Part shown: in pieces, positions 33,611 through 35,782 of the stretch
Layout of the letters: every line of letters starts with the position of its first letter
Numbering within the stretch: the first letter of the stretch is position 1
Assembly: GCA_021783475.1 (NCBI GenBank)
Contig: JAJXTU010000004.1
Location: 12,501-52,311 of the forward strand
Length of the DNA: 39,811 bases
Source of the DNA: a bacterium
GTDB lineage: Bacteria > Thermodesulfobiota > Thermodesulfobiia > Thermodesulfobiales > Thermodesulfobiaceae
Direction: 5' to 3'
Program-made: the position numbers and the translations under genes
The notes under the pieces: model-generated
What the model saw: the letters and a program-made list of their open reading frames with translations, nothing else
What the model was told of the DNA's origin: nothing
Databases searched by the model: none

Positions 33611-33817
33611 TTAATTTACGTTGTGATATGGAAGCTGAATCAAAAGTCTTGGCAGGTCAGAGCCCGATAAGACTAAAATATTTGAAAGGCTTCTCTTTCT
33701 TTTTGGGCTCTTATGAAAAAGGAGGTGACTCCTATTTTGCTGTCTTCTGATAATCTTTCCAGAACCCGTTATCCTAAATCTCTTAGCTGCTGCTCTACAC
33801 GTTTTCATCTTAGGCAT
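33611..33817 (-). CDS. rpmI: 50S ribosomal protein L35
   Basis: A 68-residue L35 with the family's MPKMKTCRAAAKRFRITGSGK start and basic SHLLFHKSPKRKR (read in part). The start ATG overlaps the infC stop by 8 bases and has GGAGGG upstream. Gene order infC-rpmI-rplT is the conserved bacterial one. Confidence 0.97.
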   Translation of the reverse strand: MPKMKTCRAAAKRFRITGSGKIIRRQQNRSHLLFHKSPKRKRSLSNILVLSGSDLPRLLIQLPYHNVN

Positions 33818-34364
33818 CTTTCAACCCTCCTTTTTGTTCTATCTTTTGTTTTATTTTAGCTGGGCCGATAACTGCTACAAGGTGTTTCTCTGTCTCGACC
33901 TCAGGAAGTTTTTCTAAAACAGCATTTTCGAGTAGACCAAAAAATTTGTTAACAAGTTCTATTCCATGATTCATGTGAATCATTTCTCTGCCTCTAAATA
34001 TAACACTAAGTTTAACCTTGTTACCCTCGTCAATGAAGTCTTGTGCAGCTTTCGCCTTGGTTTTAAGATCGTTCCCGCCTATAGCAGGTCTCAAACGAAC
34101 TTCTTTAATGATAGTCTGCCTTTGATGTTTTCTTTGAGATTTTTCTTTTTTTGACTGCTCAAATCTGAATTTTCCATAATCCATAATTCTTGCTACAGGG
34201 GGGCTTCCCTGAGGAGCAATTAACACGAGATCGCTACCTTTTGTCCTCGCCAACCTTAAAGCCTCTTGCGTAGTCTGCACACCTAATTGCTGACCATCAA
34301 TATCGATCAGTCTAACGTTAGGGTAGATCTGGATCTCTTCATTAACGACATACTCTTTGCTTAT
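33810..34364 (-). CDS. infC: Translation initiation factor IF-3
   Basis: A 184-residue IF-3 from the chosen start: an N-terminal domain with VVNEEIQIYPNVRLIDIDGQQLG, the linker with QSKKEKSQRKHQRQ, and a C-terminal domain with VKLSVIFRGREM. IF-3 proofreads start codons on the 30S subunit. The frame opens at GTG 34373, but that GTG is part of the GGAGG ribosome site. The first codon at proper distance (8 bases) is ATA 34364, and IF-3 in many bacteria starts at AUU, AUC or AUA. This lets IF-3 reduce its own translation. The alternative is the GTG start, which lacks a usable ribosome site. Confidence 0.92.
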   Translation of the reverse strand: MSKEYVVNEEIQIYPNVRLIDIDGQQLGVQTTQEALRLARTKGSDLVLIAPQGSPPVARIMDYGKFRFEQSKKEKSQRKHQRQTIIKEVRLRPAIGGNDLKTKAKAAQDFIDEGNKVKLSVIFRGREMIHMNHGIELVNKFFGLLENAVLEKLPEVETEKHLVAVIGPAKIKQKIEQKGGLKDA

Positions 34365-34377
34365 AACATTCACCTCC
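34362..34377 (-). promoter_or_regulatory. infC ribosome site and predicted non-standard start codon
   Basis: GGAGG at 34377-34373, an 8-base spacer, then ATA at 34364-34362. The in-frame GTG begins inside the GGAGG, and the ATG between is out of frame and meets a stop at once. Confidence 0.6.
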
Positions 34378-34407
34378 GAATTTAAAAATAAGACAATAAT
34401 ACTAACA

Positions 34408-34433
34408 TAGATCTTTTATATAAAAAAGATCTA
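34408..34433. promoter_or_regulatory. Inverted repeat in the infC leader region
   Basis: Perfect 10-base arms TAGATCTTTT / AAAAGATCTA around a 6-base ATATAA loop, 30 bases upstream of the infC ribosome site. It could be an operator or an RNA hairpin in the infC leader. No U run follows, so it is not a normal terminator. Confidence 0.4.
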
Positions 34434-34491
34434 AAGTAAAATATATTTGATTATACGAAAAAACAAAAAAAATAACAACGATCAATTCATA

Positions 34492-34530
34492 ATAAACTAT
34501 AATAGTATAAACTATAATAGTATAAACTAT
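34492..34530 (+). repeat. Tandem 15-base repeat carrying duplicate -10 boxes
   Basis: The unit ATAAACTATAATAGT occurs twice exactly (34492-34506, 34507-34521), and its first nine bases occur a third time up to the ATG at 34529. Each full copy contains TATAAT (34498-34503 and 34513-34518). The second -10 box is 10 bases from the ATG, so a transcript from it would have almost no leader. Confidence 0.8.
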
Positions 34531-34954
34531 GAATTATAAATTTGCACAGATATTTATAAATGCTCTGGAAGACTACCTTGTATTATATTCTCTATTGTGT
34601 CCGCTTGATAGCTCTAGTTTTTTTACAATAGAGTTCGCTATAGCGTATATAGAAAGAGGCTTTCCAGGACTATATATAAAAGAATTGAGAACTCAATGGA
34701 AACACTATGCGAATGATATCCAATTTGTAGATTATCTTGTGCAAAATTCTACATTTATAAAAAACTTAGATTCCAAAGAGGTTGATTTTGAATTAATGGT
34801 CAAAGTGAGAGAATTTTTACAGACTGCGAAAAAGCCTGTTATCATTTATGTCCCTGAGGTAACAGAGAAACTCTTTCCATATATCAATCTCGATGAAAGA
34901 GAGCTTCTTGACCCTGTAAAACTAAAAAAATCTTTAAAGAGGGGTGCCTTTTGA
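34529..34954 (+). CDS. Hypothetical protein, 141 aa, probably leaderless
   Basis: I do not recognise a family. The protein has a hydrophobic and aromatic N-terminal third, a lysine-rich C-terminus and a KKPVIIYVPEVTEKLFPYI segment before the end. No signal peptide is evident, but residues 8-28 are quite hydrophobic. There is no ribosome site before ATG 34529, and a tandem repeat with TATAAT boxes lies right at the start, so the mRNA may be leaderless. The stop overlaps acpS by 4 bases (TTGA), so both are read together. The reading frame and coupling support a real gene. Confidence 0.7.
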   Translation: MNYKFAQIFINALEDYLVLYSLLCPLDSSSFFTIEFAIAYIERGFPGLYIKELRTQWKHYANDIQFVDYLVQNSTFIKNLDSKEVDFELMVKVREFLQTAKKPVIIYVPEVTEKLFPYINLDERELLDPVKLKKSLKRGAF

Positions 34955-35331
34955 TAGGGATTGATATTGTAAGCCACAAAAGAATAGAGAAAGTTTTCAA
35001 TCGATTTAAAAATGAATTTCTCAGAAAAATATATACAGAAAATGAGATAGAATATTGTCTAAGTAAAAAATCTTTTGTAGAATGCTTATCTGCAAGGTTT
35101 GCGGCAAAAGAGGCTTGCATAAAAGCTATTTATCAATACTGCTCTGTGCGCCTGGAAATGAAACAAATAGAAATATGCGGCAAGAGAAATGAAGGAGCGA
35201 CCATAAGGATATATTCCGATAAGTTAGATACATCAAGTTTACAAATATTACTCTCGATATCCCATGAAAAAGAGTGTTCTGTGGCAGTTGTATTAATTAA
35301 TACAAATAGCTTGGAAAAAGGAGGAAATTGA
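34951..35331 (+). CDS. acpS: Holo-[acyl-carrier-protein] synthase
   Basis: A 126-residue phosphopantetheinyl transferase that moves the 4'-phosphopantetheine from CoA to ACP. The metal-binding motifs are GIDIV (D5) and ARFAAKEA with E54, followed by an SISHEKECSVAVV region. It starts at TTG 34951 with GAGGGG upstream and overlaps the previous stop by 4 bases. The next gene (argA) begins around its stop. The panC gene of the same CoA-dependent route is encoded elsewhere in the window. Confidence 0.94.
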   Translation: MIGIDIVSHKRIEKVFNRFKNEFLRKIYTENEIEYCLSKKSFVECLSARFAAKEACIKAIYQYCSVRLEMKQIEICGKRNEGATIRIYSDKLDTSSLQILLSISHEKECSVAVVLINTNSLEKGGN

Positions 35332-35332
35332 A

Positions 35333-35782
35333 ATTATTAGAAAAGCCAGGATTGATGATGCAAAGAAGATAAAAGCCTTGATCGAAGGCTTCGCCAAACA
35401 CGATCTTATGCTTGTAAGACCGCTATCTGATATATACGAATGTATAAGGGATTTTTGTGTGGTAGAAATCGATGGAAAAGTGTGCGGTTGCGGAGCACTT
35501 CATATATTTTGGGATGATATAGCAGAGATAAGAAGTCTATCTGTAAGCTCAGAATATCAAAGAAGAGGAATAGGAAAAGAGATTGTGAATTTTCTTATTG
35601 ATGAGGCAAAACAACTTAAATTAAAAAAGGTATTCGCTCTAACCTATCAGGTTGTTTTCTTTAAATCTGCAGGATTTGACATAGTAGATAAGTCACATCT
35701 ACCGCAAAAAATATGGTCAGATTGCGTAAAGTGCCCCAAATTTCCTGATTGTGATGAAGTTGCAATGATTCGCAAGATATAG
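35333..35782 (+). CDS. argA: Amino-acid N-acetyltransferase (short ArgA-type NAGS)
   Basis: A stand-alone GNAT acetyltransferase resembling short N-acetylglutamate synthases of actinobacteria and thermophiles, which start arginine synthesis. Key parts are GCGALHIFWDDIAEIRSLSV, the acetyl-CoA loop QRRGIGKE and the C-terminal KIWSDC..CPKF..CDEVAMI with four Cys. The conserved N-terminus (IIRKARIDDAKKIKALI) begins upstream of the first TTG in frame (35378), yet no ATG, GTG or TTG precedes it in this frame. Either an ATT start at 35333 (8 bases after AGGAGG) is used, or one A is missing after TTG 35328, which would give MKIIRKAR and a 4-base overlap with acpS. The given start is the former. Start uncertain, identity firm. 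Confidence 0.8.
   Translation: MIRKARIDDAKKIKALIEGFAKHDLMLVRPLSDIYECIRDFCVVEIDGKVCGCGALHIFWDDIAEIRSLSVSSEYQRRGIGKEIVNFLIDEAKQLKLKKVFALTYQVVFFKSAGFDIVDKSHLPQKIWSDCVKCPKFPDCDEVAMIRKI

Follow-up and report, generated by a model that had tools for sequence, protein, structure and literature searches.

In the window, by which we mean the whole 39,811-nucleotide stretch of DNA analyzed here, the gene for IF3 (infC) and a short open reading frame, orf141, are divergent neighbors. Downstream of orf141 lie acpS and an N-acetyltransferase gene, and an exact tandem repeat runs into the orf141 start codon (Table 1). The locus was compared between the window's own genome (G000) and three further genomes of the same genus (G001, G002, and G003), each of about 1.8 to 2.0 Mb and each the only one from its species. 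As an observation apart from the locus, dsrA scored above its cut-off in all four genomes, the match (G000:C32:12520-13701 and its orthologues) having one TAA inside the matched stretch, possibly an effect of the match end.

Table 1. Positions of the features discussed, numbered along the window
Feature	Position	Strand	Remarks
Probable infC promoter	34450..34478	-	-35 TTGTTA (34478-34473), 17-bp spacer, -10 TATAAT (34455-34450)
infC (IF3), from probable AUA start	33810..34364	-	TIGR00168; divergent neighbor of orf141
Exact 15-bp tandem repeat, 2.6 copies	34492..34530	+	Second full unit derived in G000
Upstream TATAAT	34498..34503	+	25 nt before ATG; predicted leader of ~19 nt
Downstream TATAAT	34513..34518	+	10 nt from ATG, a distance shared by 4/4 genomes; predicted leader of ~3-5 nt
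orf141, 141 aa, genus-restricted, probably leaderless	34529..34954	+	From ORF list and genome searches
acpS (holo-ACP synthase)	34951..35331	+	4-nt overlap with orf141; predicted co-transcription
N-acetyltransferase gene, probable AUU start	35333..35782	+	Two genes downstream of orf141; NF005840

Results

An exact 15-bp repeat at the start of orf141

The repeat (unit ATAAACTATAATAGT, period 15, 100% matches) has the top score, 78, among the 26 tandem-repeat rows for the window. As the original prediction had claimed, each of its two full copies contains a TATAAT box, and the third, partial copy reaches the start codon: ATAAACT (34522 to 34528) abuts the ATG at 34529, with no Shine-Dalgarno-like sequence upstream. 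It is the sole exact tandem repeat in the window in which a run of at least 20 matches spans at least one unit (a run of 24 at a lag of 15), and runs of at least 24 arose in none of 20 simulated Markov windows and in none of 2,000 simulated intergenic regions. In congener DNA totaling 269.3 kb, from 14 stretches, the lower threshold of 20 was passed at just one further locus, a 12-bp tandem repeat with about four copies of ACCTTTCTCCAT (L007:9237-9288, in G002). Pairs of TATAAT boxes at most 30 nt apart number 15 in 259.8 kb, counting both strands and including the orf141 pair and that of its G001 orthologue. Because such pairs are not rare in the A+T-rich DNA of these genomes, it is the exact 15-bp duplication that is the unusual feature.

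The orf141 protein is restricted to the genus

A protein search of 60 genomes matched orf141 in four, which are all the searched genomes of this genus. A profile search of 386 genomes returned four strong matches and five weak ones (E values of 0.0047 to 0.0081) that we take as chance, leaving no convincing match in the 382 genomes outside the four congeners; a protein scan of a genome contig collection, from which near genomes are possibly absent, also yielded no relative. Protein identity to the window copy is 93, 62, and 59% in G002, G001, and G003, respectively. With 10 of 26 fourfold sites the same in G000 and G001, against a protein identity of about 62%, orf141 does encode a real protein. 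No Pfam or NCBIfam family scored above its cut-off, weak names (GxDLY, NMP1, coat protein, and Cas2; E values of 0.011 to 0.15) were treated as chance, and a single-sequence structure prediction was unusable (mean pLDDT, 38.4).

orf141 is probably leaderless

The start codon of orf141 is fixed by an in-frame TAA two codons 5' of the same ATG in all four genomes. Each has an exact TATAAT ending 10 nt before that ATG and, by a simple 4-base test, none has a Shine-Dalgarno site. Taken together, these conserved features favor the claim, already made in the original prediction, that the gene is probably leaderless. By the usual distance from a -10 box to +1, RNA from the downstream box would start near 34524 to 34526 and carry a leader of 3 to 5 nt. 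In the passages of PMC3160421 that bear on this, a TA-like box located about 10 to 12 bp ahead of the start codon serves as a sign of leaderless bacterial genes, a distance that the box of orf141 matches. The folds of the 5' ends predicted from both boxes were not better than those of shuffled sequences.

The -35 region on the + strand matches poorly, at 2 to 3 of six positions in G000 and G002, and at four of six in G001 and G003, where the match is found only at a 19-bp spacing. An unlikely reading, though the best placed of the alternatives, is that of a promoter farther upstream, with a leader devoid of a ribosome site and a TATAAT near the ATG that owes its presence to chance in A+T-rich DNA. 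A TAAAAT with a four-of-six -35 element does occur on the same strand, upstream of the ATG by 86 nt in G000 and by 71 nt in G002; G001 and G003 also have a TAAAAT, 70 nt upstream of the ATG, with a -35 match of three of six. TATAAT is also frequent in intergenic DNA (94 in 27,879 positions, both strands). Such a reading must nevertheless account for the exact TATAAT at an equal distance from the ATG in 4/4 genomes, when at the intergenic density five positions on a single strand should hold about 0.008 boxes, a figure to be read with the four genomes being related and non-independent. The upstream TAAAAT is a weaker candidate than the box near the ATG.

Leaderless genes seem to be uncommon in the genus. 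A crude test found a ribosome-site word at some start in 215 of 245 ORFs, orf141 being among the 30 without one. An exact TATAAT 5 to 15 nt before the start was found for three genes among 334 candidate ATGs, two of them orf141 and its orthologue, and the pattern TATAAT-8 to 12-ATGAA occurs at 147 sites in the four genomes versus 119 for the reversed pattern. These counts leave the idea of leaderless starts as a habit of the genus unsupported. A promoter pattern search also matched one Clostridia contig, which resembles neither the window nor any of the eight window proteins compared.

The divergent infC gene probably starts at AUA

The hexamers and spacing of the infC promoter are present in all four genomes, as is the arrangement GGAGG, 8 nt, and AUA (at 34364). 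The first in-frame NTG of infC, a GUG at 34373, overlaps this ribosome site, and residues 3 to 170, counted from the AUA, match positions 3 to 169 of the TIGR00168 profile. We conclude that infC probably starts at AUA in the four genomes. The infC start codon is AUA in S. aureus, where autoregulation is likely (PMC13009471). E. coli uses AUU and Streptomyces ATC, with autoregulation via the non-NTG start (PMC5472188), and AUU is described for both E. coli and B. subtilis (PMC1805508). The infC leader also contains a hairpin, AGATCTTTT/AAAAGATCT (34374 to 34443, - strand; z of -1.72 versus shuffles), in which one base is changed in G002 and for which the aligned sequences of G001 and G003 are different.

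The closeness of this promoter raises the question of which gene the repeat serves. Its -35 element lies only 13 bp from the repeat, and TTGTTA-17-TATAAT is found in 4/4 genomes, so that the A+T-rich repeat might be mainly an upstream element of the infC promoter, with the + strand boxes incidental. In favor of the orf141 promoter, the last unit and ATAAACT (22 nt) are identical to G001 at 20 of 22 positions and to G003 at 19 of 22; for comparison, 56 of 125 fourfold sites in four genes of the locus are identical between G000 and G001. The excess over the adjacent infC leader (39 of 54 kept) is weak (Fisher P = 0.066), and the stronger contrast with that leader obtained by pooling 34440-34491 and 34507-34528 (65 of 71 kept; P = 0.004) concerns a stretch that contains, in its 34440-34491 part, the infC promoter. 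Among the kept bases, nevertheless, is an exact -10 box whose distance from the orf141 ATG does not change, and some promoter is required for orf141 and acpS. We regard service mainly to infC as improbable, although the repeat may play some part there.

A second probable non-NTG start in the predicted orf141 operon

The acetyltransferase frame has no in-frame NTG before 35378 and none at the conserved N terminus. In all four genomes, GGAGG is followed by ATT ATT AGA AAA, with an extra ATT in G001 and G003. Among eight homologues from outside the genus, a GTG or ATG stands exactly at the first ATT in three (L031, L033, and L034) and a GTG stands one or two codons upstream in two (L032 and L036); the remaining three (L030, L035, and L037) have neither arrangement. 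An AUU start is thus probable in the four genomes. The NF005840 profile begins about three residues before the first ATT, so the assigned N terminus may be wrong by a few codons. Among 256 open frames surveyed for non-NTG starts there were 16 candidate rows, seven of which are infC, the acetyltransferase gene, and their G001 orthologues; three of the other nine (L010, L011, and L013) lie at most 10 codons from the frame start and are still candidates. At gathering scores, Rfam matched nothing in the window but one tRNA.

A recently duplicated unit in G000

The original prediction had suggested that repeat number could change promoter strength between strains. Between species the number does vary: there are two full units in G000 (one draft genome of 138 contigs) and one, or its equivalent, in each of the other three. 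Compared with G002, the sequence of G000 is longer by exactly 15 nt between identical flanks (36/36 and 22/22). A single box is a property of G002 only, as G001 and G003 carry a second, differently arranged TATAAT 17 nt before the ATG. The window aligns with G002 in four blocks totaling about 37.6 kb (94.9% identity in the longest and 85.9 to 93.0% in the others), in which only two indels of at least 5 nt were found, the 15 nt of the orf141 promoter and another of 13 nt. With a single unit in 3/3 relatives and so few large indels relative to G002, the second unit is therefore, on this comparison, derived and recent, and would most simply have arisen by replication slippage.

That unit number differs among species could recall a contingency (phase-variable) promoter, in which changes in repeat number switch expression within populations; promoter repeat-number changes do alter expression in several bacteria, according to passages of PMC3899988. 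We consider this very improbable here, given just one versus two full units, a comparison at one genome per species, and a gene with no known surface or variable role. Equally remote, and rejected as the main reading, is a duplicated palindromic operator (ACTATAATAGT) bound by a repressor: the unit is near-palindromic, and the window holds six sites with at most one mismatch versus 0.95 expected, four of the six being the repeat on both strands, but the palindrome is not kept in G001 and G003 and the four genomes show no enrichment (15 sites versus 19 for the reversed control).

Discussion

We favor, with reasonable though far from complete confidence, the reading that the repeat belongs to a near-leaderless sigma-70-type promoter of orf141, one 15-bp unit of which was recently duplicated in G000. 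Such a promoter, with its -10 box 10 nt before the start codon, would drive orf141, whose message would therefore be nearly leaderless; acpS and the acetyltransferase gene are probably carried on the same message. Slippage in G000 would have duplicated one unit together with its -10 box. The box adjoining the ATG would probably remain the source of leaderless RNA, while a further RNA, its leader about 19 nt long, may come from the upstream box, and one or both boxes may be active. After the duplication, the upstream box retains the old upstream DNA and sits 25 nt from the ATG, whereas the downstream box retains the old spacing to the ATG and sits 15 bp farther from the old upstream DNA. The old context is thus split between the two boxes, and promoter strength could therefore rise, fall, or stay the same.

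Each component of the locus is of a known kind. Set against the bacterial leaderless genes described in passages of PMC3160421, orf141 is alike in its box, start distance, AUG, and lack of a ribosome site; it differs in having a duplicated box in one species and in that leaderlessness is predicted here from sequence. It resembles the variable-repeat promoters covered in the relevant parts of PMC3899988 in having a repeat inside the promoter and a unit number that differs in relatives, but the difference is between species and amounts to only one or two full units. The unit at orf141, moreover, contains the -10 box, while in those parts of PMC3899988 the repeats alter spacing or how many factor sites are present. 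As for infC autoregulation via a non-NTG start, the AUA behind a good ribosome site is in keeping with the systems in the portions of PMC5472188, PMC1805508, and PMC13009471 considered; the difference from these lies in the divergent operon, with its probably leaderless first gene and third gene probably started by AUU.

The probable leaderless start of orf141, AUA start of infC, and AUU start of the acetyltransferase gene lie within about 1 kb, and all three are of kinds to which IF3 could respond. In the sections of a review that concern IF3 (PMC9031893), leaderless messages are reported to be inhibited by high-level IF3, while a stimulating effect is cited for low-level IF3, and one report has IF3 being required. 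We speculate, and think it rather improbable, that the infC-orf141 region is a locus sensing translation fidelity, where IF3 would limit infC and affect orf141 and the acetyltransferase, and where the duplication would partly free orf141. A full-text literature search, limited to the portions of text it returned and no proof of absence in print, found no such IF3-linked locus. If the idea is true, the level of free IF3 or the state of the ribosome would be read out through the operon of orf141 and the acetyltransferase, and the duplicated -10 box could add an RNA with a 19-nt leader, loosening the control of orf141 by IF3 in this species.

Non-NTG starts such as those proposed for infC and the acetyltransferase gene are prone to misannotation. 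The duplicated -10 box of G000 and the single unit of a near relative, with the same adjoining bases, form a natural before-and-after pair for the study of promoter evolution at a gene that is probably leaderless. Present in 4/4 genomes, the cluster of a probable leaderless gene, an infC likely to start at AUA, and an acetyltransferase gene likely to start at AUU offers a setting in which to ask whether IF3 controls more than infC.
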